Made by a program: the position numbers and the translations under genes | DNA from: Clostridia bacterium | GTDB taxonomy: Bacteria > Bacillota > Clostridia > UBA1381 > UBA9506 | DNA length: 64,000 bases | Assembly (NCBI GenBank): GCA_017416855.1 | Contig: JAFQAZ010000018.1 | Location: 1-64,000, forward strand | Reading direction: 5' to 3' | The notes under the pieces: model-generated | Told to the model about the DNA's origin: nothing | Database searches by the model: none | The model's input: the letters and a program-made list of their open reading frames with translations, nothing else | Shown: one piece after another, positions 1,470-59,035 of the stretch | Layout of the letters: each line of letters starts with the position of its first letter | Position numbering within the stretch: the stretch's first letter is position 1

Positions 1470-1484
1470 GGGAGGGAATACAAC

Positions 1485-20036: not shown

Positions 20037-20063
20037 TTTGTTTCTCCTTATTTAGAAATTATA

Positions 20064-35703: not shown

Positions 35704-38700
35704 ATGAATAATATGAGGCGACTTATTTCGCTGTTTGTTTCACTTGCTTTGTCATTAAGCTTGCTGACAGCTGTGCCCGCATATGCTCAGGGAAACACAG
35801 AGAGCACTACTGTTAGCCATAGCGCAGGGAACTGGCTGGCACAGGACGCAACAATCAGCTCAGAAACAGTAACATTTTTAGAAGAGAACACCCAGGCGAC
35901 TAAGGTGACGCTTGAAAAGATGGGCGGATATGCGGCAAAGGAAATTACATTACAAAATGGTAAAGAATATGAGCTCTCTGCCTGGGTGAAAATAGACGGA
36001 GGAACATATTCGGCTGAGTTTGTCATTGATAAAAACCAACGTAATGAAACTTTGAATATGGATATGGTGTCAGTCGGCACCATTGCCGGCAAAGAGTGGA
36101 CAAAGATTAGCGGAAGTTATATCTATCAGGGAAATGAAGATAATGTTCCGGCTAAAGTTTACTTACGGTTTGACGGCGGCTTGAAAATGTTAACCTATTA
36201 TATGACTGATTTTAACATTCAATCAGGAGAAGTTTCTGCCACATCTACCTGGTTTACAGATGTCAGCAGGACTCATTGGGCAAAGGATTATATTGAAATT
36301 CTCTCAAATAAAGAAGTGATTCGTGGTGTTGGCGAAAACTTATTTATGCCGGAATCTCAGGTTACAAGAGCAGAATTTTTAAAAATGCTTGTTTCCGCTT
36401 TTGGTATCTCAGCTAAAGGATATGACAATGTGTATACCGATGTGGAAGAATCGGATTGGTATGCAAAGGTTGTATACGCAGCGCATCAGGCAGGCATCAT
36501 AGATGAAAATATAACACCGGATGGTGAATTCCTGCCCAACACACCCATAACAAGAGAAGAAGCAGTAGCTATGGTTATGAATGTTTATGATACATTCAAT
36601 AAAACCGAAAGAAATCAGAAAGTTAGCTTTTCAGATGAAGCCGACATCAGTTCATGGGCAAGGGATTATGTACACGATGCGGCAGCTTTAGGCTTAGTGC
36701 TTGGCACGGAGAAGGGTTTTGAACCGCAAAAAACTATGACGAGAGCCGAAGCGACAACGGTTGTTTTAAGGCTTTTGGAAAGCAAGCAGCAAACAATTTT
36801 TTATGTTGATGGAGAAAACGGAAAGGATACCAATGACGGAACCTATTTTGCACCGTTTAAAACCATAGAAAAAGCGAAAACTGCCGTCCGGCAAGTGAAC
36901 AAAAATATGTCAGATGATATATATGTTCTGTTGCGTGAAGGACGCTATATGTTAAATAGTACTTTAACATTAGGCGAGGACGACTCGGGCTTTAATGGCA
37001 ATGATGTTATCTACCAGGGTGCCGCAGGGGAAAAGATTATTATCAGCGGCGGAAAGACCATAACTGGTTGGGAATTGCATGATGCCGAGAAAAACATCTA
37101 CAAGGCAAACTCAAACGGCATTGAAACAAGACAGCTGTTTATTAACGGCAAAAGAGGTACCCGTGCAAGAAGCGAGGAGGGCACCTTTACCAATCCCACC
37201 ATGGATAAAGAGGTAGGGTATATAACACCGGATACATATATTGCTAAATGGAAGAATATAACCGATGTGGAGATGGTGTTCACACCTAAGCACAGCTGGT
37301 CTGACAGAAGACTGGGTATCGACTCTGTCAGCATTGACGGTGAAAATGCCGTGATAAAGATTAAGGACCTTGCCTGGTATATGGCAGTTAACCAAAGCTC
37401 AAGCGGCCATGCCCCTGTTACCTTAAGGCAGTATGAAAATGCTTACGAGTTATTAGATACTGAGGGCGAGTGGTATTTAGATAAAGGTAAGAAAACCTTT
37501 TACTATAAGCCCCTTGCAGGGGAGGATATGGCAACCGCCGATGTTGTTGCTCCTGTTTTGGAAGAGGTTATGTCTGTTTATGGGCGAAGCTATGATACCC
37601 CTGCTCACAATATCTGCTTTAAAAATATCAGCTTTGAGCACGGCGGATGGTTAAATCCCAGTAAAATAGGCGGTCACTTTAACAACCAAAGCAACATGAA
37701 CGTTTTGGAAAAGTTCACATCTTTTCCCGGTAACATTATGGTGCAGCGTGCCAATAATATTGATTTTATAGAGTGTGATATTTCCAAAATGGCAACAACG
37801 GCACTGCAGTTTATGGATGGTGCACGAAATTGCGTAGTAGAAGGCTGTCATCTTTATGATTTATCTGCCAGTGCATTGCATTTTGGCGATCAGGAATATA
37901 CAAATAGTAAAATTTCAAATCCGCCGGAAGAGGAAATTGTAAAAGGCTTTACTGTTAATAATAACTACATTCATGATATAGGCCTTGACTACTATGCGTC
38001 CTGCGGCATTGTCCTTGGTTTTACCCAGGATTCTGAGTTTTGCCACAATGAGCTTTATAACCTGCCCTACAGCGGATTTCATATAGGCTTTGGCTTTGGC
38101 GAAAGAGGGGCCACAGCACTTAGCAACATTACCGTTGCCAATAATTACATCCATGACGTTATGATGAAACTGGTTGATGGCGGCTATATCTACACCAACG
38201 GCAGTACCAATGGGGTTGAGCCCATAGAGCTTGATTTTCGTGAAAACTACTGTATTAATAAAAACGGCGGTAGAATCACCATTGCTCTTTATAATGACAC
38301 AGGCACGGATAACTGCACATGGTCCAAAAATGTTGTGAACATTATTGGCGCAGGGGCAGAGTCTATGTTTGCCTATGGTAATAGTTCAGATAGAACACCC
38401 GGATGTTACTACATCAGAAATTACACAACCCATGATTATATGTACGGACCGGTTGCCTATAAGGAAAAGGCGAATATAGACATGCAGCATTATCCCGATG
38501 CCAACTGGCCCCAAGAGGCTATGGAGGTTATTGCCAATGCCGGTTTAGAGGAAAGATATCAATATTTAGCACCTCGAAATACAGACTTAGATATTGTTAC
38601 AACGGAAACAACGCTTTTAATGGATAGCGGTGAAGAAGCAACCGTTAACCTGAAAGGCTTTACGGAGCAAGGCGCGGTTTATGATATGGGGGATGTAACA

Positions 38701-39696
38701 ACAAGCTATGCATCTGATAATGAGGCAGTGGCAATGGTCTTTGAAAACGGGGCTATCAAAGCTCTGTCCCAGGGTAAGGCCAACATTACCACAACGGTTA
38801 CAAAGGGCGATTTTACTCAAACGAGAAATACAGAGATTTTTGTGGATGACCGTTTTGACAAAATGGTTATGAACGGTATGAGCGACCGTTTGGTTGTTGG
38901 TGCTGAAATTTACACGAACCTGCGTGGCGAAACCCTGTTTGGCAGACCACTTAATATTAACGGTACCATTAAGAGCGATAATCCTGAGGTGCTTTCTGTG
39001 GATGAAAAGGGTGTCATCAGAGCCTTAAAGCAGGGTGAGGGCATTATTGAGGTTACAGGCGAGCATGAGGGTAAAAGCATAACCAGTATCTACAATATCA
39101 GCGTTTTGGATTATGCTGACCAAAGCGGCACGAAATATCCTGAATATCCCATTGATGGTCTGTTGCATAATAAAGACAAGTGGGAACTGATGAGCGAAAA
39201 CGGTGTCATTAATGACGTTTCAGGTGGCTTACAGTTCTATACCCCGGCTGGCTATGCACTGTATACCGATGAACAATTTGAAAATGAGCTGTTTACCTTT
39301 AATCTTAAAATCACCAATGGTAGCTGGCCGTCAATTTCCTTCCGTCAGCAGGCAAATCTGCCCTATGGTGACGCGGGCAACGAGCTCTATATGCTGACCT
39401 TCTCACCAAATACCATTGACCTGCAGCGTTTTAACAGGGGCGTCAGAACCGGTATTTTATATTCCGGTGCAGCGGACTTTATCACCGGTGGTCCTGCACT
39501 GCCTACTGTGGTAGACTATGATAAAACCTATAAAATTCAGGCAGGTGCCATCAATGAAGAAAACGGCGTTAGAATTATTGTGAATGTTGATGGCGTAAAT
39601 GTTATCAACTTCTTAGATACAGTTGATGGCTATATTAAAGAACCCGGTTATTTCGGTGTATTCTGTACCAAGGGTACAATGGATTTTACAAGGTAA
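35704..39696 (+). CDS. Surface beta-helix protein: CBM4/9-like, three SLH, beta-helix, Ig-like, lectin-like
   Basis: 1330 residues. Signal peptide ends VPAYAQG. Residues 35-175 look like a CBM4/9-type sandwich (EYELSAWVKIDGG). Three SLH domains cover 181-355. The right-handed beta-helix starts near 365 (FYVDGENGKDTNDGTYFAPFKTI) and runs to about 960, closely resembling the helix of 22284-27128 down to matching phrases such as QLFINGKRGTRARSE. Two bacterial Ig-like (BIG2) repeats follow at 970-1140, then a LamG/DUF1080-like lectin fold to the end. An S-layer-bound candidate polysaccharide lyase or glycosidase. Confidence 0.85.
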   Translation: MNNMRRLISLFVSLALSLSLLTAVPAYAQGNTESTTVSHSAGNWLAQDATISSETVTFLEENTQATKVTLEKMGGYAAKEITLQNGKEYELSAWVKIDGGTYSAEFVIDKNQRNETLNMDMVSVGTIAGKEWTKISGSYIYQGNEDNVPAKVYLRFDGGLKMLTYYMTDFNIQSGEVSATSTWFTDVSRTHWAKDYIEILSNKEVIRGVGENLFMPESQVTRAEFLKMLVSAFGISAKGYDNVYTDVEESDWYAKVVYAAHQAGIIDENITPDGEFLPNTPITREEAVAMVMNVYDTFNKTERNQKVSFSDEADISSWARDYVHDAAALGLVLGTEKGFEPQKTMTRAEATTVVLRLLESKQQTIFYVDGENGKDTNDGTYFAPFKTIEKAKTAVRQVNKNMSDDIYVLLREGRYMLNSTLTLGEDDSGFNGNDVIYQGAAGEKIIISGGKTITGWELHDAEKNIYKANSNGIETRQLFINGKRGTRARSEEGTFTNPTMDKEVGYITPDTYIAKWKNITDVEMVFTPKHSWSDRRLGIDSVSIDGENAVIKIKDLAWYMAVNQSSSGHAPVTLRQYENAYELLDTEGEWYLDKGKKTFYYKPLAGEDMATADVVAPVLEEVMSVYGRSYDTPAHNICFKNISFEHGGWLNPSKIGGHFNNQSNMNVLEKFTSFPGNIMVQRANNIDFIECDISKMATTALQFMDGARNCVVEGCHLYDLSASALHFGDQEYTNSKISNPPEEEIVKGFTVNNNYIHDIGLDYYASCGIVLGFTQDSEFCHNELYNLPYSGFHIGFGFGERGATALSNITVANNYIHDVMMKLVDGGYIYTNGSTNGVEPIELDFRENYCINKNGGRITIALYNDTGTDNCTWSKNVVNIIGAGAESMFAYGNSSDRTPGCYYIRNYTTHDYMYGPVAYKEKANIDMQHYPDANWPQEAMEVIANAGLEERYQYLAPRNTDLDIVTTETTLLMDSGEEATVNLKGFTEQGAVYDMGDVTTSYASDNEAVAMVFENGAIKALSQGKANITTTVTKGDFTQTRNTEIFVDDRFDKMVMNGMSDRLVVGAEIYTNLRGETLFGRPLNINGTIKSDNPEVLSVDEKGVIRALKQGEGIIEVTGEHEGKSITSIYNISVLDYADQSGTKYPEYPIDGLLHNKDKWELMSENGVINDVSGGLQFYTPAGYALYTDEQFENELFTFNLKITNGSWPSISFRQQANLPYGDAGNELYMLTFSPNTIDLQRFNRGVRTGILYSGAADFITGGPALPTVVDYDKTYKIQAGAINEENGVRIIVNVDGVNVINFLDTVDGYIKEPGYFGVFCTKGTMDFTR

Positions 39697-41466: not shown

Positions 41467-42471
41467 ATGAGCAATTTATTAACAGGCAGTTTAGTGCATC
41501 TCAGTTGCAACACCGGTGCTGAAAACACCGGTGTTGATAAACTGACTTTTGATGAGCAACTGTGGAATACCATTGTAGAAGAAACGGTTAAGAGCGGACA
41601 AAATTCTCTGTTTATTGCATTGGGAGATGGCGTTATTTTTAACAGCCATCCCGAAATCGCCATCCCCGGTGCATGGACACGGCAACGACTCAGAAAAGAA
41701 ATTCAGAGATTAAAAGAAATGGGCATTACCTTAATGCCCAAAATGAACTTTTCTGCCATGCATGATAATTGGCTGGGCATCTACAGCCGTATGATTGGCA
41801 CGCCTACATACTACCATGTATGCCGAGACCTTATTTTAGAGGTATGCGATATTTTTCGGGATGCGCCTTATTTTCATATTGGTATGGATGAAGAGCAACC
41901 GAAAAGTATTCACACGTTTGAAAAATATGGTGTCGTAAGACAGAACGAGCTTTTCTGGCATGATGTCAACTTCTTTTTAGAGTGTGTTCGGGAGGGTGGG
42001 CTGACTCCCGTTATGTGGAGCGATTCTGCTACACGCAATTATGATGAGTTTAAAAAACATGTAAGTCCTGAGGAGATGCTTGTTTTTCTGTATTATTATC
42101 ATTCAGTCAAACAAGAGCACTGGACACGGATTGACTCTCAGGAGAAGTACAGGGTGTTTTATTCTACACGGGAACCCTATAAATATATGAATTTGACTTA
42201 TGTAGAAGAAGACCCTTATTATGCTGATTTCAGAGAGAACTATCCTAAAATTTTAGCCGATGGTTATAACTGTTTAGTAGGTGTTTCCACCTGGTATGAA
42301 AATGAGTATAACACCGATGAGGTGGTGGAACTGTTTTCAAAAGAAGCGCCGCAGGAACAAATTAAGGGATTTTTCACCCTGCCTTGGCTGAGAACCCTTC
42401 CGGAGAACAGAGAGGTATGGGTGAATGCGATTCACAGTCTGTCTGAGGCTGTTCAAAAGCATAATGCATAA
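41467..42471 (+). CDS. GH20-like glycosidase, tandem copy 1
   Basis: 334 residues from ATG 41467 (frame open from 41386; GAGG upstream). Barrel-type protein with HIGMDEEQP: D141-E142 match the Asp-Glu catalytic pair of GH20 beta-hexosaminidases (hIGgDE). No signal peptide. The other GH20 hallmarks are weak, so it may be a separate GH20-related family of unknown specificity. First of three tandem paralogues that agree at about four residues in five by eye. Differences gather at residue 140, 185-191, 208-210 and near 294, all plausible active-site loops. Confidence 0.72.
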   Translation: MSNLLTGSLVHLSCNTGAENTGVDKLTFDEQLWNTIVEETVKSGQNSLFIALGDGVIFNSHPEIAIPGAWTRQRLRKEIQRLKEMGITLMPKMNFSAMHDNWLGIYSRMIGTPTYYHVCRDLILEVCDIFRDAPYFHIGMDEEQPKSIHTFEKYGVVRQNELFWHDVNFFLECVREGGLTPVMWSDSATRNYDEFKKHVSPEEMLVFLYYYHSVKQEHWTRIDSQEKYRVFYSTREPYKYMNLTYVEEDPYYADFRENYPKILADGYNCLVGVSTWYENEYNTDEVVELFSKEAPQEQIKGFFTLPWLRTLPENREVWVNAIHSLSEAVQKHNA

Positions 42472-42492
42472 TTGCAGAAAGGAATTAAAGTT

Positions 42493-43497
42493 ATGAAAGA
42501 ATTACTGACGGGTAGCTTGGTGCATCTGAGCTGTAATACGGGTGCTGAAAACTCAAGCGTTGATAAACTCACCTTTGATGAGAATTTATGGAATGAAATT
42601 GTAGAAGAAACCGCAAAAAGTGGCCAGAATGCAATGTTTATTTCATTGGGTGACGGTGTTATTTTTAACAGCCATCCCGAAATTGCCATCCCCGGTGCAT
42701 GGACGCGTCAACGACTCAGAAAAGAGATTCAGAGATTAAAGGAAATGGGCATCACCTTAATGCCCAAAATGAACTTTTCTGCTATGCATGATAATTGGCT
42801 GGGCATCTACAGCCGTATGATTGGAACCCCTGAATATTACCATGTATGCCGAGACTTGATTTTAGAGGTTTGTCATATTTTCCGCGATGCGCCTTATTTT
42901 CACATTGGCTGGGACGAGGAGCAACCGAAAAGTATTCACACGTTTGAAAAATATGGTGTAGTTCGCCAGAATGAGCTTTTCTGGCATGATTTAAACTTCA
43001 TGCTGGAGTGTGTTCGTGAGGGTGGGCTGACTCCAGTTATGTGGGGCGGTACTGCAAGACGTATATATGATGAGTTTAAGAAAAATGTAAGTCCTGATGA
43101 ACTGGTTATTTTCCAGACCCATTATCATTCAGTCAAAAAAGAGCATTGGACACGGATTGATTCTGAGGAGAAGTACAGAGTGTTTTATTCTACCCGTGAG
43201 CCTTATAAGTATATGAATCTGACCTATGTAGAAGAAGATCCTTACTATGTCAATTTCCGAGAGAATGCATTTAGAATTTTAGAGGATGGCTATAACTGCC
43301 TGTTTGGTGTTTCCTGCTATTATGAGAATAAATATAACACAGAAGAAGTAGTTGAACTGTTCTCAAAAGAAGCACCCCCTGCACAGATTAAGGGATTTTT
43401 CACCTTGCCCTGGCTGAGAACATTGCCGGAAAATAGAGAACCATGGCTTAAATCCATCCGGGAGCTTTCTGAAGCGGTTAATAAGTATAACGGTTAA
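42493..43497 (+). CDS. GH20-like glycosidase, tandem copy 2
   Basis: 334 residues from ATG 42493, behind AGAAAGGAATT; an in-frame TTG at 42472 is part of the ribosome-site region and is not preferred. Same fold and D141-E142 pair (HIGWDEEQP) as copy 1, with Trp at 140. Loop 185-191 reads GGTARRI and 208-210 reads QTH. The first 120 residues are nearly identical in all three copies, at DNA level too, which suggests recent duplication or gene conversion. Cytoplasmic. Confidence 0.72.
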   Translation: MKELLTGSLVHLSCNTGAENSSVDKLTFDENLWNEIVEETAKSGQNAMFISLGDGVIFNSHPEIAIPGAWTRQRLRKEIQRLKEMGITLMPKMNFSAMHDNWLGIYSRMIGTPEYYHVCRDLILEVCHIFRDAPYFHIGWDEEQPKSIHTFEKYGVVRQNELFWHDLNFMLECVREGGLTPVMWGGTARRIYDEFKKNVSPDELVIFQTHYHSVKKEHWTRIDSEEKYRVFYSTREPYKYMNLTYVEEDPYYVNFRENAFRILEDGYNCLFGVSCYYENKYNTEEVVELFSKEAPPAQIKGFFTLPWLRTLPENREPWLKSIRELSEAVNKYNG

Positions 43498-43518
43498 GAA
43501 GGAAGGGGTGCTTTCGCA

Positions 43519-44526
43519 ATGAATGATATTCTCACAGGGAGTCTTGTGCATCTGAGTTGTAATACCGGTGCAGAAAACACGAGTGTTGATAAGTTGACCT
43601 TTGATGAAAAACTGTGGAATGACATTGTAGAGGAAACCGCCAAAAGCGGACAGAATGCAATGTTTATTGCATTGGGCGACGGTGTTATTTTTAACAGTCA
43701 TCCCGAAATTGCCATTCCCGGAGCATGGACACGGCAAAGGCTGAGACAAGAGATTAAAAGACTGAAAGAAATGGGCATTACCTTAATGCCCAAAATGAAC
43801 TTTTCAGCCATGCATGATAACTGGCTGGGCATCTACAGCCGTATGATTGGCACGCCTACATACTACCATGTGTGTCGTGATTTGATTTTAGAGGTTTGCC
43901 AAATTTTCCGTGATGCACCTTATTTTCACATCGGTCTGGATGAAGAATGGCCCAAAAGCATTCACAGCTTTGAACAATATGGTGTTGTAAGGCAGAATGA
44001 GCTTTTCTGGCATGATGCAAATTTCTTTTTAGAGTGTGTTCGTGAGGGTGGGCTGACGCCTGTTATGTGGGATGGTCGTGCCATCGCTATGTATGATGAG
44101 TTTAAGAAAAATATCAGCCGTGACGAGGTAGTTATTTTCCAAACTTATTATCATGCTGTTAAAAAAGAGCATTGGACACGGATTGACTCAAATGAGATGT
44201 ATAAAACCTATTATTCAACCCGGGAACCTTATAAGTATATGAACTTAACTTATGTGGAAGAAGATCCTTATTATGTTGATTTCAGAAAAAATGCCTTTAA
44301 GATGATAGAAGATGGCTATGACTGTATGTTTGGCGTTTCCTGCTATTACAACAATCCATATAATACAGAGGATGTAGTAGAAATGTATTCTACACAAGCA
44401 CCAAGAGAGCACGTAAAAGGATATTTCACGTTGCCATGGCTGAGAACATTACCGGAAAATAGAGAACCGTGGCTGAAATCTATCCGGGAGCTTTCGGCAG
44501 CCATTCAAAAGTATAACGTGTTATAA
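43519..44526 (+). CDS. GH20-like glycosidase, tandem copy 3
   Basis: 335 residues, ATG 43519 with GAAGGAAGGGG upstream. Catalytic pair in HIGLDEEWP, with Leu140 and Trp at 144 where copies 1 and 2 have Gln. Loop 185-191 reads DGRAIAM and 208-210 reads QTY. The C-terminal part differs most (MYSTQAPREHVKGYF against LFSKEAP..QIKGFF), so this is the most diverged copy. Followed after 32 bases by the fucosidase gene. The set probably handles related linkages in one glycan. Confidence 0.72.
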   Translation: MNDILTGSLVHLSCNTGAENTSVDKLTFDEKLWNDIVEETAKSGQNAMFIALGDGVIFNSHPEIAIPGAWTRQRLRQEIKRLKEMGITLMPKMNFSAMHDNWLGIYSRMIGTPTYYHVCRDLILEVCQIFRDAPYFHIGLDEEWPKSIHSFEQYGVVRQNELFWHDANFFLECVREGGLTPVMWDGRAIAMYDEFKKNISRDEVVIFQTYYHAVKKEHWTRIDSNEMYKTYYSTREPYKYMNLTYVEEDPYYVDFRKNAFKMIEDGYDCMFGVSCYYNNPYNTEDVVEMYSTQAPREHVKGYFTLPWLRTLPENREPWLKSIRELSAAIQKYNVL

Positions 44527-44558: not shown

Positions 44559-45899
44559 ATGGATAGATTTAATATACCTCAAAAGTGGAAATGGTTTTAT
44601 GAGGACAGATATGGTATCTTTATACACTGGGGACCTTATTCTGTCTATGGCAGAGGTGAGCAGATTGCCTTCAGAGAGCATTTAGACCTCTTGGAATATG
44701 AAAAAATTGCTTGTGACTGGAACCCAAAAGATTTTGATGCAAAAAAGTGGGCAAAAGTTGCAAAAGAGGCAGGGTTTAAATATGCTTGCTTTACTACAAA
44801 GCATCATGATGGATACTGTATGTGGGACACAAAACTGACCGACTATTCATCAGCAAAGCAAGCTCCCAAGAGGGATTTTGTACGCGAATATGTAGAAGCC
44901 TTTCGGTCGGAGGGTTTTAAGATAGGTTTATATTATTCGTGGATGGATTGGCGAATCCCTGTTTACTTTGAAGGGCCTAAGGCAGACAAAAAGGCCTGGG
45001 AAAGCTACAAACAGTATATGCATGGTCAGGTAGAGGAATTGCTTTCTAATTACGGAAAAATAGACTATTTTTTCTTTGATGGGGTATGGCCGAGAAATGC
45101 CGAAGAATTGGGTAGCCTCCAGTTGGTTGAAAAAATGCGTCAATTACAGCCTGATATTATGATCAATGACCGATTGGGTTATGACAAAAACAAAGACGAA
45201 AATACTGATGGCGGTATGGGTGCCGGTGGTGCTGCGAATCTTGGAGATTTCGGGACGCCTGAGCGTACTGTAGTTGCCGATGAATTTCGTATGTGGGAGT
45301 CGTGTCAGGTCTCCGGTTGGAGACTTTGGGGATATACAAAAGGAGAGCGCTGGTTAGCGGCGGATAAGCTTTTGGATATCTTATGCGAATGTACTTCAAA
45401 AGGCGGCAACCTGCTTTTAAATGTGGGACCTGATGCAGATGGGAACTTTCCGGATGAATTTATGGAAAGAACTCTTACCATAGGTGCGTGGCTTAAAAAG
45501 CATGGCGAGGCAATTTATGGGCATGGCAGCGGCGAACTGACAGAATTTGTCACGCATGGTTACCAAACAATAAAGGGAAATAATATGTACCTGATTATCA
45601 GGTTTTGGGATGGAGAACCATCTTTGCGGCTTGCAGACATTCTTACACCGGTGAAAGATGTAACATTGCTTACTACATCTGAAAAGCTGAAATTCCGGCA
45701 AAAGGATGAGGTTTTGTACATAGATGGGTTACCTAAGAAAAATCCTGCAGAATTATTTCCGGTTATTAAAATAGAATTTGAAGAAAAGCCTGAAACCAAT
45801 CAATGGGGCAGAGAGAGACTTTGGGAGGGTGACCCCAATCGAGTTGCAGCCTGGGCAAAACAACGAGGAACAGACAATAATGTTTTAGCGGTACGGTGA
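44559..45899 (+). CDS. GH29 alpha-L-fucosidase
   Basis: 446 residues, no signal peptide. N-terminal barrel opens with YGIFIHWGPYSVYG and CFTTKHHDGYCMWD; the nucleophile is Asp174 in DYFFFDGVWP. A C-terminal sandwich covers about 340-440. GH29 enzymes remove alpha-linked L-fucose with retention. The acid/base residue is not conserved in the family and cannot be assigned by eye. Ends just ahead of the ABC permease gene, so hydrolysis and import are co-expressed. Confidence 0.92.
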   Translation: MDRFNIPQKWKWFYEDRYGIFIHWGPYSVYGRGEQIAFREHLDLLEYEKIACDWNPKDFDAKKWAKVAKEAGFKYACFTTKHHDGYCMWDTKLTDYSSAKQAPKRDFVREYVEAFRSEGFKIGLYYSWMDWRIPVYFEGPKADKKAWESYKQYMHGQVEELLSNYGKIDYFFFDGVWPRNAEELGSLQLVEKMRQLQPDIMINDRLGYDKNKDENTDGGMGAGGAANLGDFGTPERTVVADEFRMWESCQVSGWRLWGYTKGERWLAADKLLDILCECTSKGGNLLLNVGPDADGNFPDEFMERTLTIGAWLKKHGEAIYGHGSGELTEFVTHGYQTIKGNNMYLIIRFWDGEPSLRLADILTPVKDVTLLTTSEKLKFRQKDEVLYIDGLPKKNPAELFPVIKIEFEEKPETNQWGRERLWEGDPNRVAAWAKQRGTDNNVLAVR

Positions 45900-45931
45900 A
45901 GGGTATTAAATTTGGTAAGGGGAGAAATGTG

Positions 45932-46888
45932 ATGAAAACAAAAAATATGGCGATGAGCCTGAATACGACGAAGAACAGACATGGAATATGCAGCAATCTG
46001 TATAATTACCGTTATGCATATATTTTGCTGCTTCCGGCTATAATTGCCGTTATTATGTTCCTCTATCTGCCTATGTTCGGCTTGGTGATTGCCTTTAAGG
46101 ATTATAATATTTTTGACGGCTTATGGGGCAGCCCTTGGGTTGGTTTGGAAAACTTTAAGGCCGTTCTGGAGCACAAAACAATGATGAAGGCAGTGCGCAA
46201 CACTTTAGTTCTAAGCTTTATCAATATTTTTGGTGGTTTGCCATTTCCTATTATTCTTGCAATTTTATTTAATGAACTTTGGAATGCAAAATTCAAAAAA
46301 GTAGTCCAAACATTATCCTATTTGCCACACTTTTTATCGTGGGTATCAGTTGTTGGATTTTGTTATTCGCTCCTTTCGATTGAAGGGCCTATCAACAATT
46401 TGCTGATTCAGATATGTGGTGAGGAATATGTGGCAAAGAATTTTTTGATGGAGTCAAAATATTTTATGCCTATAGCCTTTTTGACGGCCTTGTGGAAGGA
46501 AATAGGCTGGAATTCAGTTATTTATCTTGCGGCCATTACCGGTATAGACAGTTCTCTTTATGAGGCGGCAACCATAGATGGCGCTAACAAGCTTCAGCAA
46601 ACATGGCACATAACTCTGGCAGGCATTAAGAGTACCATTGTTGTGTTGCTTGTTATGAAGCTGGGTACATTATTTGGCGGAAATTTCGAACTTGTTTACG
46701 GCTTGCAAAACGTTTTCACGATTGACGATACGGAAATTATCGGCACAATGGTATACAGAGCCGGTATTCAAAATGGTGATTATTCTACTGCAACTGCTTT
46801 TGGTCTTATGCAGGGTCTTATTTCTGTAATTTTAATTTTAGCTTCTAACTTTATGAGTAAAAAGCTGACAGAAGTTAGTATCTGGTAG
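45932..46888 (+). CDS. Sugar ABC transporter permease, LplB type
   Basis: 318 residues from ATG 45932 (GGGGAGAAATGTG upstream; frame open from 45896). Six membrane helices, the first being YILLLPAIIAVIMFLYLP. The EAA loop reads EAATIDGANKLQQTWHITL, the contact with the ATPase. One of two permeases for oligosaccharide import. No ATP-binding subunit is encoded in the window; relatives share a genome-wide MsmX-type ATPase. Confidence 0.93.
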   Translation: MKTKNMAMSLNTTKNRHGICSNLYNYRYAYILLLPAIIAVIMFLYLPMFGLVIAFKDYNIFDGLWGSPWVGLENFKAVLEHKTMMKAVRNTLVLSFINIFGGLPFPIILAILFNELWNAKFKKVVQTLSYLPHFLSWVSVVGFCYSLLSIEGPINNLLIQICGEEYVAKNFLMESKYFMPIAFLTALWKEIGWNSVIYLAAITGIDSSLYEAATIDGANKLQQTWHITLAGIKSTIVVLLVMKLGTLFGGNFELVYGLQNVFTIDDTEIIGTMVYRAGIQNGDYSTATAFGLMQGLISVILILASNFMSKKLTEVSIW

Positions 46889-46931
46889 AATAAAGTATCG
46901 CAATATGATATGATAAGATAGGAGAGATAAC

Positions 46932-47813
46932 ATGAAACATACAAAGGGTGAAAAGGTTTTTCAGGTCTTTAATATAATCATTATGTTGCTTGTCTGTTGT
47001 TTGATGGTTTATCCATACCTCAATCAGGTGGCGATTTCCTTTAACGAAGGAATTGATGCCATGAAAGGCGGCATTGGTATTTTCCCAAGAGAATTTACAT
47101 GGGCAAACTATAAGGCAATTTTTTCAACGAAAAGCATGTATACCGGTGCGGTGGTTTCTGTTTCTATAACGGTTTTGCACACACTGCTTTGTTTGGTTGT
47201 GCTTTTTGCGTCAGCATATGGTATCACTCGTCGCGGGTTACCATATCGTCGGGGGCTTACACTTTTTCTTATGCTACCGTGCTATGTAAGTGCCGGCGTT
47301 GTGCCAACGTATATTATTTACAGATACTTGGGCTTAATTAACAGCTATTGGATTTACATTCTTCCGGGATGCTTTTCTTTTTACAATATGGTTATTTTAC
47401 GTTCGTTTTTACAGGAACTGCCGGCAAGCATTGAGGAATCTGCAAAGCTGGACGGTGCAAATGATATACAGATTATGTATAAAATCGCGCTGCCGCTTTC
47501 AAAGCCAGTATTGGCAACGATTACCCTTTGGGTGGCTGTGGGAAGATGGAATAACTGGACAGATGCAATGATGTACATAACAGACAGAAAGCTTTTTCCC
47601 CTTTCATATATTATGATGCAGCTTATTAAAGAAAGCTCTCTTGCACAACAAATGGCAGATGATTCCGGTATGATCACTTCGGTAGCTAAGCCTACGCCTG
47701 ATACTATTAAGGCAGCAACGTTGGTTGTAACCACATTACCGATTATTATGGTATACCCGTTTTTACAAAAGTATTTTATCAAGGGTGTAACCCTTGGTGC
47801 AGTTAAAGGATAA
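46932..47813 (+). CDS. Sugar ABC transporter permease, YtcP type
   Basis: 293 residues, six membrane helices. EAA loop EESAKLDGANDIQIMYKIAL; the ending KYFIKGVTLGAVKG is the usual C-terminus of this subfamily. Ribosome site AGGAGAGA. Pairs with the LplB-type permease 43 bases upstream. Confidence 0.93.
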   Translation: MKHTKGEKVFQVFNIIIMLLVCCLMVYPYLNQVAISFNEGIDAMKGGIGIFPREFTWANYKAIFSTKSMYTGAVVSVSITVLHTLLCLVVLFASAYGITRRGLPYRRGLTLFLMLPCYVSAGVVPTYIIYRYLGLINSYWIYILPGCFSFYNMVILRSFLQELPASIEESAKLDGANDIQIMYKIALPLSKPVLATITLWVAVGRWNNWTDAMMYITDRKLFPLSYIMMQLIKESSLAQQMADDSGMITSVAKPTPDTIKAATLVVTTLPIIMVYPFLQKYFIKGVTLGAVKG

Positions 47814-47841
47814 TTAAAATTTAAGGTTAAAAAGGAGCTGT

Positions 47842-49644
47842 ATGAAAATGAAAAAAATGATGTCTATGGTAGCTGTTTTATTGTCAGTAATTATGTTAGC
47901 ATCGTGTTCAGGATCAAACGAAGCATCGAAAACAGAAAAAAACATAAACCTTACCGTTTGGAACACTCAGGGCGTGGAGTATATCTATAAGGATATGAGT
48001 GAGAATATTCCTGAAGAATGGCTATTTGAAAGAACCGGTGTTAAAGTAGAAAATATTTACGGAAACGATGGTGGACAGTGGGATAGCAAGCTGACCAAGC
48101 TTGTTGCCGGGGATAATCTGCCGGATATTGTTTGGTGTCAGAGTGGCCAAGGCCCCTCTCACTTTAACAGATTAGACCAGTTGGGTAAAGTAAGTCTTTT
48201 AGACGAGGAAATGCTGAAACAATATGCCCCGAATATCTGGGGAAAAACCCCCTCTTTTATCTGGGAACAGTTTAAAAACGCCGATGGAAAAATTATAGGT
48301 ATTCCCTACCAGATTAATTATTCATACATAGATGAAATTTATCCTGATTATACAGAAGAGGAAAAGAGCGTTCTTTTAAATTCCAAGGTTGTTCCGGCAG
48401 CAAGATTAAAAACAAATCTCTCTATCAGAGATGATGTTTTAAAACAAATTTATCCGGAAGCCAAAAGCTATGATGAGTTGGTTGCTTTGTTAGAGGAAAC
48501 CGGCAAGCCCATTGGCGATGCCGTTGTAGATACTCCTATTGATACAACGGAAGAATTTATAGAATTTATGTATAAAATTCGTGATTTAAACATCGAAGAA
48601 AACGGCAAAAAAGTATATGCCTTTGGATATGCCGGTGATGGCAATGATAACTGGGAAGCACTGGTTTATCTGGGCAATATGATGTATGGAAGCGGCGGTC
48701 ATGAATACACTGGCCACTGGAATACAAAAACAAAAGAAGTAGAAATTCCTCTGGCAACAGACCACGTTCGTCAAATGGCAAAAACCCAGAACCAAATGAT
48801 TTTAGATAAGGTTATTGATCCTGAGAGTTTAGCCCATACCGGCGCTCAGTTTAAGGCTAAGGTTTTGCAGGGCAGATATGTTATTTGTTCAGCCACGAGA
48901 GCGGGCGATTATAATACGATTAACACGCAACTTAAAGAAGAGGGATATAACTTCAGTTACAGACCGTTATATATCGACATTCCGGCTCCGGAAGGCTATG
49001 CTCCTACACAGGTGGTAACGCCTTTTGCTTCTGCATTTACCATGTTAGACAGCTTATCAGAAGAGGAAGTCATTCGTGTTTTGCAATGGGCTGATTTACA
49101 GTATACAGAGGAATATCTGGAAGTGATGAACTGGGGCAGACCGGAAGATGAGCTTTATACAGTACAGGAGGATGGCACACGTCTGTTTAAAGATGATGCC
49201 TTTAATCAATATTTTATTAAAGGTGATTCCTCAGCACTTGATGCATCAAATTCAAAAGGTCTTGGCAATATGGCAGGCAGACTGTGTATTACTCCTATGG
49301 TTTACAGCAAGTGGACACCGAATGTATACAATAAGGATGTTTCTTACGCACCAACTTCAAACTCAGGCTTTAAGTTTGATGCAGAAAGTCCTTATGTTAC
49401 TTGCGTTGAAACGGTTCCGCCTTCTACAGTTCGTGCAGCAGAATTCGCAGATATTGAAGAGGTTATTGAATTTTGGGCGAAGCGTGAAGAGTGGGAGATT
49501 GCCATTAAAAAAGCAATTGCTGCTGCCGAAGGTGAGTTTGACAATAAATGGAATGAAATGCTTGATGTTGTTAATAACATTGTAGATGTTGATGTTATGG
49601 AACAAAAAATGAACGAAATCGCAAAAGAGTATATCACAGAATAA
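47842..49644 (+). CDS. ABC transporter solute-binding lipoprotein, LplA type
   Basis: 600 residues. Lipoprotein signal with LASC lipobox, Cys22 lipidated. Family 1-type extracellular binding protein of the large LplA subgroup (about 500-600 residues), common with LplB/YtcP permeases. It captures oligosaccharide at the outer face of the membrane. A strong stem-loop (49683-49723) follows it, likely keeping its mRNA more abundant than the downstream part. Confidence 0.92.
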   Translation: MKMKKMMSMVAVLLSVIMLASCSGSNEASKTEKNINLTVWNTQGVEYIYKDMSENIPEEWLFERTGVKVENIYGNDGGQWDSKLTKLVAGDNLPDIVWCQSGQGPSHFNRLDQLGKVSLLDEEMLKQYAPNIWGKTPSFIWEQFKNADGKIIGIPYQINYSYIDEIYPDYTEEEKSVLLNSKVVPAARLKTNLSIRDDVLKQIYPEAKSYDELVALLEETGKPIGDAVVDTPIDTTEEFIEFMYKIRDLNIEENGKKVYAFGYAGDGNDNWEALVYLGNMMYGSGGHEYTGHWNTKTKEVEIPLATDHVRQMAKTQNQMILDKVIDPESLAHTGAQFKAKVLQGRYVICSATRAGDYNTINTQLKEEGYNFSYRPLYIDIPAPEGYAPTQVVTPFASAFTMLDSLSEEEVIRVLQWADLQYTEEYLEVMNWGRPEDELYTVQEDGTRLFKDDAFNQYFIKGDSSALDASNSKGLGNMAGRLCITPMVYSKWTPNVYNKDVSYAPTSNSGFKFDAESPYVTCVETVPPSTVRAAEFADIEEVIEFWAKREEWEIAIKKAIAAAEGEFDNKWNEMLDVVNNIVDVDVMEQKMNEIAKEYITE

Positions 49645-51913: not shown

Positions 51914-53476
51914 ATGAAATATAAGCTTTTGATTGTTGATGATAATTATATGCAGATACAAACATTGCTTACTTACATTGAAAAAGGGATGAATGGGGAG
52001 TTTGAAATTAAAACTGCCCGGAATGGCAGAGCAGGGCTTGAATGTTTTCAAGCCTTTTTGCCTCATATCGTCATTACTGATGTTGTCATGCCGGTAATGG
52101 ACGGATTGGAAATGGTAAAGGAAATACGAAAAATTAACAATGATGCTAAATTTATTTTTATAAGCTGTTATGAAGAATTTGAGATTTTAAAAAAAGTTAT
52201 GGAAAGCAATGCGGTATCATATATCTTAAAACCAATTCGTGCCGAGAGCTTATATGAATCCATTGAAAAATCCATAGCAGAAATTGAAACAGAGAGAAAA
52301 TACGGTGAACTTGACACGCTTCTTTCTGATAGCTTAGAATTATATAGAGAGAATTTCTTTAACAGACTTTTATATGCTCAGCATTGGGAAGAGGATGATT
52401 TTGAAAAATCAATTGCCGTTCTTGAATACGATCAATATAATTCTTTTTTGATTGTAAAAATTGATGTTATGTGTACACGCCGTATTGACATATATAATAT
52501 TTTTAATCTTACTAAAAAAACATTACTTTCGGGGCTCGACGGAACGGTTGTAGTTAAAAATGAAACAAGTATGTTTGCTATGTTCATGGGAAAAAACTGC
52601 ACACAGGAACAGTTCAAAAAGAAAATCTATGAGTCCTTGGAGTTATATAGGGGAAGAGTGCATTCTGAATTTAAAGTAATGCTGAATATAGGCTTATCTG
52701 AGGTTCATGCAACACTTAAAGAAGCGGTGGTTATGATTGAGGAAGCAACCAATGCCCTTGAAAACAACCTTTCCTTTGATAAAGGTGGCGTGCATATTTA
52801 TAACGAGTTACTTTATGAAAATCCGAAATATAATGTTCAGGAAATAAAAGAAATGCTTGAGCATTTGATCTATAGTGATGAATCTGATAAAACAGAAAGA
52901 TTTATCAATAAATTTTACGAAAATATTGATGCAGAAAACATTTATGTGAGTAAAACATTTTGTACTACTGTTTTAGTTTTGCTTCAGCTTGTTCTTCACG
53001 AAAATAATTTGTTTGACAGCCAGATAATTTCTGTTTTTTCTGAGTTTTGGTCTAAAATTAATGATTTGAAAAACTATGAAGAAGTATGGAATTGCTTTAA
53101 AGAAATACTCCTGCAGATTTTATCTACTGCACTGACAAGGAATGAACAGCGCTATGAAGGTTTGATTGCAGATATTGACAAAATTATTGAAAAGGATTAT
53201 AAACACATAAAAAATGTTCAGGATATCTGTTCAAGACTTTTTGTTTCAGCGAGCTACGCAAGAAAAATATACAAACAGCATACAGGCATAACCATTTACG
53301 AGAAATTGTTTATAACAAAAATGGAAAAAGCAAAAAGCCTGTTGGCTGAAAAGATTTCAGTACAAAATGTGGCGACCTTAGTAGGGTATAAAAGCAAAAC
53401 AGCGTTTTTGGAAGCTTTTAAAAGATATACAGAGTCAGTGCCGATGGATTATAACGATATAATCGAGGAGGATTGA
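51914..53476 (+). CDS. AraC-type response regulator, YesN-like
   Basis: 520 residues. Receiver domain 1-120 with D9-D10, phospho-accepting Asp56 in VITDVVMP and Lys in YILKPI. A middle helical domain (130-410) is usual for YesN proteins. The C-terminal AraC helix-turn-helix pair (about 425-515) carries SASYARKIYKQHTG and VATLVGYKSKTAFLEAFKRY. It should activate the glycan locus when phosphorylated by the kinase encoded seven bases downstream. Confidence 0.94.
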   Translation: MKYKLLIVDDNYMQIQTLLTYIEKGMNGEFEIKTARNGRAGLECFQAFLPHIVITDVVMPVMDGLEMVKEIRKINNDAKFIFISCYEEFEILKKVMESNAVSYILKPIRAESLYESIEKSIAEIETERKYGELDTLLSDSLELYRENFFNRLLYAQHWEEDDFEKSIAVLEYDQYNSFLIVKIDVMCTRRIDIYNIFNLTKKTLLSGLDGTVVVKNETSMFAMFMGKNCTQEQFKKKIYESLELYRGRVHSEFKVMLNIGLSEVHATLKEAVVMIEEATNALENNLSFDKGGVHIYNELLYENPKYNVQEIKEMLEHLIYSDESDKTERFINKFYENIDAENIYVSKTFCTTVLVLLQLVLHENNLFDSQIISVFSEFWSKINDLKNYEEVWNCFKEILLQILSTALTRNEQRYEGLIADIDKIIEKDYKHIKNVQDICSRLFVSASYARKIYKQHTGITIYEKLFITKMEKAKSLLAEKISVQNVATLVGYKSKTAFLEAFKRYTESVPMDYNDIIEED

Positions 53477-53483
53477 ATACGGT

Positions 53484-55070
53484 ATGCCGACTGAGAGTAT
53501 TTTTACTACCATATTAAGAAGAGTGCTGTGGACAACCCTGGTGCCGCTGGGGTTTTTAATTCTGGTTATATCATTTTCGATATGTTACTTTGTGAAAAAT
53601 GATGAGAATGTAAGAGTAGAAAAAGAAACGGAACAGTATGTTTTGATTGCAAAAGAGAGGATTGACGAGTCTTTATCTGTTGTTGAATCTATTCAGAGCT
53701 ATTCATATATTTTAAATAATCTTCAAAATCAATTCGAAAACGCCTATGAAGTTTTTGATTTTGTTAGTCAAACAAATACTTATATGGATAATATAACGGG
53801 GACATTGGACGATGCTACTATTACAATTTATTATACAAATGATTCTTTATATGATAGCAAATACTTTTCATCGAGCAAGGAATTTGAACAATATGAAGAG
53901 ATTTTAGAAAAAATTAATGTTGAAGAGAAAAATTTTATCTGGGAAAATGGGCTGCACGAAGATAAAGAGGGCAATAAGCAGGTAGTTTTTTACAAAAAAT
54001 TTCCCTTATCTTCCTGTGATGTTTTAGAATGTGTTATCAACTTACCTCAAACAAGCGACGATATACATATTTTGGATGCGAATGATGTGATTTCAAATGA
54101 AGAACAGTATATTGTCAGAAGCATAAACGAGAATATTAAAGCATGCGGGATTATTAATCATCAAGAGCTGTATTTTAAATATATGATTATTGTAATCTTA
54201 GCGTTAGTGTGCATGCTCGCCTTGTTTATTCTCATTTATTTTGTAGCTTTTCGTGTTTTAAAAAAGACGACCTATAACATTACTAATTTTATTGAGCATT
54301 TAGACGTAAACAGTTTAAGCGAACTGGATGTAATTGCAAAAGAGCAGGAGAATATTGTTTCTAAGGAATTATTTACTGTGAGCAAAACGATTTCGATGTT
54401 GTGTGATGAGGTTAAAAACATTGAAAATGTGAAGAAAAACATTGAAATAGAGTTAGAGCAAAGAAAAATCAGCTATCATACAGTTTATAATGCACTTTCG
54501 GCAATTAGAATCAAGTCGTACGAAAATGGAGAAAAAGAAATTACAGAAATTGTAGACGGTTTGGTGGAATACTACAGAATGGTTTTAAACAAGGGTGAAA
54601 ATATGACCTTTCTGAGTGATGAAATTTTAATGCTGGAAAAGTATGCTCTTGTGAGTAGCCTATCAAATTATGAAGCGTATAACTTTAGTGCAGAAATACC
54701 CTTTGACCTGAAGTTTTGTCGTATTCCTCATATGATTATATTACCGTTTATAGAAAATTCGATCAATCACGGCCTTTCAGGTGTTGATTATGAGGGTGTC
54801 ATTACGGTAAGGTGTCAAAAAGACAAAGAATATCTGCAAATTAAAGTTAGTGATAATGGTGTGGGAATTCCCGACGAAAAACTTGAAAAATTAAATAATA
54901 TTGAACTTTTTAGTATAGGATACGGCATTAAAAATGTGCATGCAAGGTTAAAGCTTTTATATGGTGAAGACAGCACCATTGTTTTTGAAAGTCAGGAAGG
55001 GAAGGGAACAACCGTTACCATTCGTTTTCGCGCTTTTGACGGAACCCAAGACCAAATGGACATAGAGTAA
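53484..55070 (+). CDS. Sensor histidine kinase, YesM-like
   Basis: 528 residues. Two membrane helices (about 12-34 and 230-255) enclose an extracellular sensor region. The kinase part has phospho-accepting His332 in ISYHTVYNALSAI; the usual PHF is YHT. The ATPase domain follows, with FIENSINHG as N box, SDNGVGIP and YGIKNVHARL. Paired with the YesN-like regulator. Expected to sense an extracellular sugar or cell-wall signal. The altered H box is unusual but the His is kept. Confidence 0.92.
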   Translation: MPTESIFTTILRRVLWTTLVPLGFLILVISFSICYFVKNDENVRVEKETEQYVLIAKERIDESLSVVESIQSYSYILNNLQNQFENAYEVFDFVSQTNTYMDNITGTLDDATITIYYTNDSLYDSKYFSSSKEFEQYEEILEKINVEEKNFIWENGLHEDKEGNKQVVFYKKFPLSSCDVLECVINLPQTSDDIHILDANDVISNEEQYIVRSINENIKACGIINHQELYFKYMIIVILALVCMLALFILIYFVAFRVLKKTTYNITNFIEHLDVNSLSELDVIAKEQENIVSKELFTVSKTISMLCDEVKNIENVKKNIEIELEQRKISYHTVYNALSAIRIKSYENGEKEITEIVDGLVEYYRMVLNKGENMTFLSDEILMLEKYALVSSLSNYEAYNFSAEIPFDLKFCRIPHMIILPFIENSINHGLSGVDYEGVITVRCQKDKEYLQIKVSDNGVGIPDEKLEKLNNIELFSIGYGIKNVHARLKLLYGEDSTIVFESQEGKGTTVTIRFRAFDGTQDQMDIE

Positions 55071-56197: not shown

Positions 56198-58228
56198 ATG
56201 GAGTTTAACGCAAAGTGGATTACCACAGAGGATTTTGCGGATTTGGTTCCCATCAATATGTTTCATAAAGAAAATGATGAAGTAAAATTACCGGAAAGTC
56301 CTTTTCAAAATTATCACATTCACTTTCGCAAAAGGTTCACGCTGCAGAATACAGACAATGTATTTATGAATATTTCTGCCGATGACAACTATAAATTATA
56401 TGTAAATGGTGTTTTTGTATGCCAAGGCCCTGCTCCTGCTTATCCGGAATGCTATAACTACAACAGAATTGATTTGTCTGAGTATTTAAAAGCCGGAGAC
56501 AATGTGATAGCCGTTCACGTGCACTATCAGGGCGTTGTTAACAGAGTTTGCTTCAGCGGTGATAACAGACAGGGTATGATTGCAGATGTTTATCAGAACA
56601 ATGAGTTTATTTTTGGAACAGATGAAAGCTGGCTTTATTCACAAGCAATGGAGTTTAGCGGAGAACTAACGGGATATGAAACATTGTTTCTGGAGAATAT
56701 AGATTTCAACCTTGAAGAAAAAGGCTGGACAACGCTTGATTTTAATGATAGCGGATATAAAAAAGCAGTAATAAAACAAGATGCAGACTATTGTTTTAAA
56801 GACGAACCTGCCAAAACTGTTGATGTTTATAAAAAACTTCCTGTTCGGGTAATAAAATTTGACAAGGGCAAGTATTTTATCGATTTCGGAGAAGAAATTA
56901 CAGGACAGTTCTGTATGAGTGCAAAGGGTTTAAAGGGACAAACTGTTCGCATTATGTGTGGAGAGGAAGCAGAAGAAAACGACCCATTACTCGCAAAATA
57001 TGATATGCTTTGTAACTGTCGTTATGATGAAACCTGTATTTTGTCAGGTGAGCAGGACGAATTTAATTTTTATGATTATAAGGCGTTCCGATATGTAAAT
57101 GTATTTACCGACGAAGACAATTTAAACGAAAAAACCTTTTGCGCCATAGTCAGACATCATCCTTTTGAGGAAAAATACAGTTTAGAAACAGATATACCGT
57201 ACCTTAAAGATATATGGAGGATATGCTCTAACGGCGTGAAATATGGAGCGCAGGAAGCCATTCTTGATTGCCCGACACGTGAAAAAGGTTTGTATTTAGG
57301 AGACTTTACTGTCAGCGGGCTTACGCGTTTATATTTAACTGAAGACGCAGAATATTATAGAAAAATTCTGTATGATTTTGCAGCAACAACCAGAGTGTGC
57401 CCTGGGCTTTTGGCCGTTGCAAATTGTAGTTTTATGCAGGAAATTGCTGATTGTTCCCTGCAATATCCTATGCAGATATTAAACTATTACAAAATTACTA
57501 AGGATAAAGCTACAGTTATAGACTTATATCCTACGGTATGCGGAATTTTAGAATATTTCAAGCAGTATGAACGCGCTGATGGACTGTTGGAAAATGTACA
57601 TGAAAAGAACAACATTGTCGATTGGCCAGCCAATTTAAGAGATGATTATGATGCTCATATTGCATTAAAAACATATGGAATTGACTGCCACAATGTTTTA
57701 AATGCATTTTATATTGGTGCCTTGCAGATTGTTAATGAATTGCGCGAAATTATTGGAATAAGTGAAAGAATAGATGTAGAACGGAAAAAGAATGCATTTA
57801 TAAAAGCTTTTTATAACCAAAAAACAAAGCTGTTTTGCGATACGGAAAAATTAACGCACAGTGCCCTTCATTCTAATGCATTACCATTATACTTCGGCAT
57901 TGCTAATGAAGATATGCATGAAGAAATCAAAAAGTTTATTATGGAAAAAGGTTTGTCCTGCGGCGTTCAATTCGCATTTTTTGTTTTAAAAGGATTGGGA
58001 AGAATAGGCGCATACGAAGAGGAATTGGCATTACTTGTCAATGAAACAGAACATTCCTGGGTGAATATGCTTAAAGAAGGGGCAACTACCTGCTTTGAGG
58101 CCTGGGGAAAACCACAAAAATGGAACACCAGTCTCTGCCATCCATGGGCTAGTGCACCGATAATTATTCTTTTTGAAGACTTAAACAATAAATTTGGAAT
58201 AACAATTAAAGTCAATACTCAAAAATAA
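56198..58228 (+). CDS. GH78-type alpha-L-rhamnosidase
   Basis: 676 residues. N-terminal sandwich domains (about 1-310) with DDNYKLYVNG, then an (alpha/alpha)6 barrel from about 340 with the family block EAILDCPTREKGLYLGDF and the late TTCFEAWGK and CHPWASAP motifs. No signal peptide. Removes terminal L-rhamnose. Somewhat shorter than many GH78 proteins (800-1000 residues), lacking extra N-terminal modules. Starts 20 bases after the esterase gene. Confidence 0.85.
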   Translation: MEFNAKWITTEDFADLVPINMFHKENDEVKLPESPFQNYHIHFRKRFTLQNTDNVFMNISADDNYKLYVNGVFVCQGPAPAYPECYNYNRIDLSEYLKAGDNVIAVHVHYQGVVNRVCFSGDNRQGMIADVYQNNEFIFGTDESWLYSQAMEFSGELTGYETLFLENIDFNLEEKGWTTLDFNDSGYKKAVIKQDADYCFKDEPAKTVDVYKKLPVRVIKFDKGKYFIDFGEEITGQFCMSAKGLKGQTVRIMCGEEAEENDPLLAKYDMLCNCRYDETCILSGEQDEFNFYDYKAFRYVNVFTDEDNLNEKTFCAIVRHHPFEEKYSLETDIPYLKDIWRICSNGVKYGAQEAILDCPTREKGLYLGDFTVSGLTRLYLTEDAEYYRKILYDFAATTRVCPGLLAVANCSFMQEIADCSLQYPMQILNYYKITKDKATVIDLYPTVCGILEYFKQYERADGLLENVHEKNNIVDWPANLRDDYDAHIALKTYGIDCHNVLNAFYIGALQIVNELREIIGISERIDVERKKNAFIKAFYNQKTKLFCDTEKLTHSALHSNALPLYFGIANEDMHEEIKKFIMEKGLSCGVQFAFFVLKGLGRIGAYEEELALLVNETEHSWVNMLKEGATTCFEAWGKPQKWNTSLCHPWASAPIIILFEDLNNKFGITIKVNTQK

Positions 58229-58267
58229 AAACGGACATAAAATATTTCAATGAAAGGACATGAGGTC

Positions 58268-59035
58268 ATGGTTAAAAGTTTACTAAAAGATAAATTAGCC
58301 GTAGAAATTTATGAAACACGCGATGAAATGGGAAAAGCAGCGGCGGAGGATATTGCAGATGCCATTCATGCTTTGTTTCAGGAGAAAGACGAAATCAATA
58401 TGATTTTTGCAGCGGCACCATCACAAAACGATGTGCTTTTTCATCTGTGTGAGCGTGATGACATCGCTTGGGAAAGAATTAATGCGTTTCATATGGATGA
58501 GTACATTGGCCTTCCCAAGGCAGCGCCTCAGGGTTTTGCAAACTTTTTAATTGATAAGATTTTCTCAAAGAAGCCTTTTAAATCTGTGAATTTAATTGAT
58601 TCAACCGCCCAGGACCCGGATGCAGAAAGTAAAAGATATTCCAAGCTTTTACAACAGCATCCTACCGATATTGTGGTTCTCGGTATCGGTGAAAATGGCC
58701 ATATTGCTTTTAATGACCCGCACGTGGCAGATTTTAATGATGCTAAAATGGTCAAACCAGTTGAACTTGATGAAACCTGCAGACAGCAACAAGTCAACGA
58801 TGGTTGTTTTGCATCCCTTGAGCAGGTTCCAAAATACGCAATGACTCTGACGGTGCCAACAATGTTTGCGGCAAAATACCTTTTCTGTGTTGTGCCTTGT
58901 ACAACCAAGGCAAATGCCGTGCGTAATACAGTAGAGGGTGAAATCAGCGAAAAATGTCCTGCAACCATTTTAAGAAAGCACAGCGCTGCAAAATTGTATT
59001 GCGATAGCGATAGTGCTTCACTTCTTGAGATATAA
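58268..59035 (+). CDS. nagB: Glucosamine-6-phosphate deaminase
   Basis: Converts glucosamine-6-P to fructose-6-P and ammonia. 255 residues from ATG 58268 (frame open from 58250; AAAGGA upstream). FHMDEYIGL with Asp77 and GIGENGHIAFNDP are canonical active-site motifs. It links amino-sugar release to glycolysis. A canonical NagA survives only as a C-terminal fragment at 61321-61542, so substrate must come from the two NagA paralogues in the minus operon or from elsewhere. Confidence 0.93.
   Translation: MVKSLLKDKLAVEIYETRDEMGKAAAEDIADAIHALFQEKDEINMIFAAAPSQNDVLFHLCERDDIAWERINAFHMDEYIGLPKAAPQGFANFLIDKIFSKKPFKSVNLIDSTAQDPDAESKRYSKLLQQHPTDIVVLGIGENGHIAFNDPHVADFNDAKMVKPVELDETCRQQQVNDGCFASLEQVPKYAMTLTVPTMFAAKYLFCVVPCTTKANAVRNTVEGEISEKCPATILRKHSAAKLYCDSDSASLLEI

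Follow-up and report, generated by a model that had tools for sequence, protein, structure and literature searches.

In the window, a stretch of 64,000 nucleotides from a contig of a gut-type Clostridia bacterium, three adjacent genes encode copies of one GH20-like protein (A, B and C). We read them as co-expressed cytosolic glycosidases that would derive from one divergent ancestor and would have been retuned around the -1/acetamido pocket, and we give this reading a probability of roughly 0.5; specialisation of the three copies is plausible to about the same degree. The common ancestor already lacked several family-conserved residues before the triplication, and the catalytic-face differences that arose afterwards are nearly confined to the beta4-beta7 side of the pocket mouth.

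41467..42471, + strand: copy A, a GH20-like (beta/alpha)8 glycosidase of 334 aa, retaining W184-S-D186 and, before D141-E142, the usual Met
42472..42492, + strand: A-B spacer of 21 nt, with Shine-Dalgarno-like AGAAAGGA
42493..43497, + strand: copy B, 334 aa, Trp before DE, D186G and W209T relative to the family
43498..43518, + strand: B-C spacer of 21 nt, with Shine-Dalgarno-like GAAGGAAGGGG
43519..44526, + strand: copy C, 335 aa, Leu before DE, D186G and W209T relative to the family

The tandem array and its kinship with GH20

The tandem triplication claimed by the sequence-only reading was confirmed. The three ORFs of 334-335 codons are intact, they align with 0 indels across 334 codons, and the start-to-start distances from A to B and from B to C are 1026 and 1026 nt, an exact period. 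The two spacers are equal in length and unrelated in sequence. Amino acid identities are 84% (A-B), 78% (A-C) and 84% (B-C), and nucleotide identities are 82, 78 and 81%, respectively. The genome carries a fourth family member on another contig, C30 (L004:1459-2454), which is 42% identical; this paralogue has lost the conserved H137 and W184 and retained D-E-E.

AlphaFold predicts A and B (pLDDT 93, pTM 0.91-0.92) to be (beta/alpha)8 barrels with an identical set of strands. The top Foldseek matches were all GH20 enzymes, at a TM of about 0.6 (TMq 0.54-0.64), and a profile search with 29 sequences gave 9fyl/9fym and 8bal as best PDB matches (E about 1e-17). An Asp-Glu pair stands at the end of beta4 in all copies (D141-E142), and among 52 relatives the catalytic D is found in 50 and the E in 51. 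The triplet also keeps H99, N94, Y211, W184 and W307. Pfam recognised the kinship poorly: PF00728 passed its cutoff in copy A alone (24.4 vs 22.3 bits), B and C missed E<=1, and 14 of 29 family members matched at E<=0.1. The triplet family matched no glycosidase family in NCBIfam. The label "GH20-like" in the sequence-only reading is right, and weak with respect to Pfam.

Several substrate-binding residues of GH20 are missing, and for this reason we retain "GH20-like" rather than GH20. In DspB, Arg27 at the end of beta1 binds O3/O4, and Glu332, after the beta8 Trp, binds O4/O6; an equivalent of Glu332 is not universal, being missing from DispLp and StrH (PMC11883664). No Arg lies upstream of R72 in any copy, and position 11 is His in 37 of 52 relatives. 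The triplet reads W307-L-R309, and at 309 the relatives do not commonly have Glu. The beta6-end Trp is likewise absent, position 209 being Tyr, Thr and Thr in A, B and C. Of the 52 relatives, 45 have Trp at this position and 5 have Tyr, and Thr occurs only in B and C. In the alignment, the beta6-end Trp of 9fyl, 8bal and 4pys falls at W209. By sequence, W209 would be equivalent to Trp237 of DspB, which packs on the N-acetyl group in the acetamido pocket and is essential for activity (PMC11883664).

The search covered about 950 genomes and a GTDB contig scan, and it yielded 55 family members, all with 224 bits or more on the family profile; other GH20-like relatives scored at most 65. Members occur in Clostridia, Kiritimatiellota, Verrucomicrobiota, Planctomycetota and a small number of other groups; Pfam hardly covers the family, and a single genome can have up to 18 matches. 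That maximum was seen in a horse-faeces Kiritimatiellia genome (G106; L024, L080-L095), where one match is a short fragment and two lie near each other on contig C93. No relative more than 46% identical to the triplet turned up in the GTDB contig scan or in the genomes sampled from its genus, family, order, class and phylum, and the family was absent from nine same-genus genomes. The search found no solved or named member of the family. The gene neighbourhoods of relatives showed no constant partner, the commonest match being GH20 (3 of 45 neighbours). A tandem pair with 46% identity was observed in genome G449 (L057:1396-3414); in one of its copies Asp replaces the catalytic Glu142 and W17, W209 and W307 are lost, and this copy is possibly non-catalytic.

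Positions that differ among the copies

Residues 50-125 are 95-97% identical among the copies, with 4 of 76 positions varying, in agreement with the near-identity claimed for this stretch. The claimed Met, Trp or Leu before the catalytic DE was also found, at residue 140. In the model the strands end at 139 (beta4), 184 (beta5) and 210 (beta6), and residue 140, D141 and E142 follow beta4.

41884..41892, + strand: copy A codons 140-142 (Met-Asp-Glu), C-terminal end of beta4; matching codons in B (Trp-Asp-Glu) at 42910-42918 and in C (Leu-Asp-Glu) at 43936-43944
42019..42039, + strand: copy A codons 185-191, beta5-alpha5 loop, the stretch varying most; matching codons in B at 43045-43065 and in C at 44071-44091
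42088..42096, + strand: copy A codons 208-210, end of beta6; matching codons in B at 43114-43122 and in C at 44140-44148

The two loops had been said to differ in each copy. Positions 185, 187, 189 and 191 do have three states, 186 and 190 have two, and 188 is invariant. The triplets at 208-210 are distinct (LYY in A, QTH in B, QTY in C), with Q-T common to B and C. Mapping on the model places residue 140, 185-191 and 208-211 at the C-terminal ends of beta4, beta5 and beta6, beside the Asp-Glu pair; pocket contacts were assigned from strand ends and the alignment, not from measured distances. In total 82 positions vary and 16 differ in all three copies, about 7 of these on the catalytic side. 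Much of the change lies outside the named segments, since residues 212-334 hold 45 of the 82 variable positions and the barrel helices hold 39.

The proposal that change is focused on the active site held for one sector and not for the whole catalytic face. With the face defined as all eight strand ends plus five residues, and hence with no sector chosen beforehand, 13 of 56 positions varied vs 69 of 278 elsewhere (OR 0.92), and enrichment was not significant at any of four loop widths. Within the face, 12 of 28 positions varied at beta4-beta7 vs 1 of 28 at beta8-beta3; this sector was chosen after inspection of the data, and its p = 0.036 is uncorrected among 8 possible sectors. The same sectors were compared in a second tandem triplet of the family (L013:6001-9216, from the goat-rectum Clostridia MAG RGIG3164), whose copies are 68-75% identical and which by tree forms a separate clade and thus an independent triplication. 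There, 4 positions varied at beta4-beta7 vs 11 opposite (contrast between triplets, Fisher p = 6e-4), all three copies have Met before DE, and the beta4-beta7 sector is nearly constant. As the sector was chosen post hoc, we regard the contrast as good but not decisive. A pocket set of 23 positions (OR 6.8, p = 2e-5) was dropped as main evidence because its positions had been chosen after viewing.

The triplet is under strong purifying selection. Overall dN/dS was 0.09-0.11, and along the gene it peaked at 0.48 in any region and never exceeded 1, three sequences being too few for a test by site. Residue 140 is naturally variable: the 52 relatives have Met (28), Tyr (11), Phe (7), Leu (3), Trp (2) and Gln (1), and the residue before DE is G, A or L in the published dispersins and in StrH (PMC11883664). 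Met140 of copy A is the common state and Trp and Leu are rare elsewhere; the occurrence of all three states in other members speaks against taking Met, Trp and Leu by themselves as specialisation. The variable positions also include D51, D186, W209 and P271, each conserved in at least 75% of relatives.

Much of the divergence from the family is shared by the copies. The stem to the triplet carries 1.07 changes per column vs 0.05-0.16 on the copies' own branches, making it about 7-20 times longer. Of 67 family-conserved positions, 14 were lost in A, B and C alike (among others W17, D51, W182, S207, W209 and P271); most relatives compared have lost 2-9, and one divergent tandem copy of G449 has lost 14. 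On the shared losses and the long stem, most of the rebuilding of the pocket predates the triplication, with retuning after it. The stem, on which the conserved pocket residues were mostly lost, weakens the proposal of duplication followed by specialisation.

Gene conversion, dosage and substrate

Gene conversion had been proposed to keep the frame of the copies uniform. Codons 50-125 had been picked on protein similarity, so silent sites provide an independent test. In these codons A-B (p = 0.006) and A-C (p = 0.02) showed a deficit of silent differences, and B-C did not (p = 0.30). The best low-difference segments spanned most of the gene (A-B 17-304, p = 0.002; A-C 6-281, p = 0.006; permutation), the ends of A showing more silent divergence than the gene body. 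Heterogeneity of silent divergence gave no signal for B-C (p = 0.73), and the regional silent patterns of AB, AC and BC did not differ (p = 0.12). Even in the region of lowest dS, codons 50-125, dS was still 0.38-0.85, so that any exchange must be old and recent homogenisation is not indicated. Conversion is thus weakly supported at silent sites in comparisons with A, and the gene body may have diverged more slowly because of an older exchange between A and the other copies. Ongoing conversion that shuffles pocket segments, making the copies one recombining pool and not three stable specialists, would share the low silent divergence in the A comparisons; given the missing B-C signal, the similar regional patterns and the dS values, we consider it very improbable. 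Family-wide constraint was rejected as the full cause of the dip: entropy is lowest at 50-125, but the goat-rectum triplet has no matching dip or special conservation there.

The triplication may instead raise the amount of an enzyme with one activity, the changes at 140, 185-191 and 208-210 being drift at positions tolerant after the ancestral remodelling. We regard this as possible without favouring it. Residue 140 varies in the family and in published GH20s (PMC11883664), the whole catalytic face is not enriched, dN/dS is below 1 everywhere, and tandem copies recur in the family (three in L013, two in L057). Such drift does not readily explain why D51, D186, W209 and P271 vary though most relatives conserve them, or why L013, more diverged overall, keeps beta4-beta7 nearly constant. 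Another account, which we hold unlikely, is that B and C no longer bind 2-acetamido sugars and act on other glycosides or in binding or regulatory roles, with A (Tyr209, D186) nearer the ancestral activity. Here Thr209, unique to B and C, replaces a Trp that aligns with those of 9fyl, 8bal and 4pys and whose presumed counterpart in DspB is essential (PMC11883664), and the Asp of W-x-D is lost. D141, E142, H99, N94 and Y211 are nevertheless retained under strong purifying selection, and the space could be filled by a different residue such as Y277, which all three copies have.

The genes around the triplet bear on its possible substrates.

18894-21206, - strand: two adjoining NagA-like N-acetylglucosamine-6-phosphate deacetylase genes, about 20 kb upstream of the triplet
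35704..39696, + strand: GH141-like cell-surface protein with SLH domains
44559..45899, + strand: GH29-like alpha-L-fucosidase, the next downstream gene (Alpha_L_fucos, 274 bits)
45896..49644, + strand: carbohydrate ABC transporter, with two UgpA/UgpE-type permeases and a binding protein
47842-49644, + strand: the lipoprotein-like binding protein of this transporter, with no NCBIfam match
51914..55070, + strand: response regulator (AraC output) and histidine kinase
56198..59035, + strand: GH78-like alpha-L-rhamnosidase and NagB-like glucosamine-6-phosphate deaminase

The same-strand run around the triplet also includes an SGNH esterase gene. The NagB-like gene (TIGR00502, 136 bits) and the NagA-like pair (TIGR00221, 182 and 176 bits, cutoff 226) score under their cutoffs; as a clue to substrate they are suggestive, and the NagA-like pair is possibly a second tandem duplication within the window. 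On the - strand at 21232-22023 lies a metallo-beta-lactamase-fold protein resembling subclass B3, for which we claim no resistance function because its score is under the curated cutoff (187 bits vs 240). At its left end (3-4713) the window has three large serine recombinase genes in a row, which suggest a mobile element.

On the favoured reading of retuned glycosidases, A, B and C would be co-transcribed and probably cytosolic, no signal peptide being apparent by eye at their N-termini. Each would have a GH20-type barrel with the Asp-Glu catalytic pair, and the retention of D141-E142, H99, N94, Y211, W184 and W307 points to substrate-assisted (oxazoline) hydrolysis as in GH20. Their substrates would be oligosaccharides brought in by the adjoining ABC transporter, and the neighbourhood would agree with uptake of a fucose/rhamnose/amino-sugar glycan that is then trimmed inside the cell. 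Specialisation to three linkages, as proposed by the sequence-only reading, is not indicated: the affected positions align with the -1/acetamido-pocket side and not with the +1 site, and if W209 corresponds to Trp237, that side would face the sugar 2-substituent and not the linkage. The copies may be tuned to related substrates that vary at this substituent or at the residue packed on it. A new activity in this uncharacterised GH20-like family, with all three copies retuned to sugars other than ordinary 2-acetamido hexosides, seems improbable. On that account the array would be a natural three-way series on one scaffold, following loss of the acetamido-pocket Trp and other pocket residues.

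Comparison with known systems

With GH20 (clan GH-K; Treponema denticola lacto-N-biosidase 9fyl/9fym, Niako3494 8bal) the triplet shares the barrel and H-x-G-x-D-E, with the His after beta3 and the catalytic Asp-Glu at the end of beta4, and copy A retains the W-x-D after beta5. Unlike GH20, it is without the beta1-end Arg, the Glu two past the beta8 Trp and the beta6-end Trp, and it is barely or not matched by the Pfam GH20 model. The dispersins (GH20 poly-N-acetylglucosaminidases such as DspB) are single-domain GH20 barrels of similar length, with a variable residue before DE as in the triplet (PMC11883664), and dispersin 1yht was matched in the profile search at E 2e-5. The dispersin set (e.g. 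Trp330-Gly331-Glu332, Arg27) is absent from the triplet, and dispersins are secreted whereas the triplet is probably intracellular.

A further parallel is the goat-rectum triplet: both consist of three adjacent copies from the same family and arose independently, and the more diverged L013 left beta4-beta7 nearly unchanged. Together they form a natural pair with opposite patterns of change. Paralogous glycosidase copies within a degradation cluster are also known from the carrageenan cluster of Zobellia, with three GH127 genes, where the presence of one to three paralogues was put down to gene duplication (PMC5698469). Those genes belong to a different family and phylum and are near neighbours, whereas A, B and C form an uninterrupted array of equal period.
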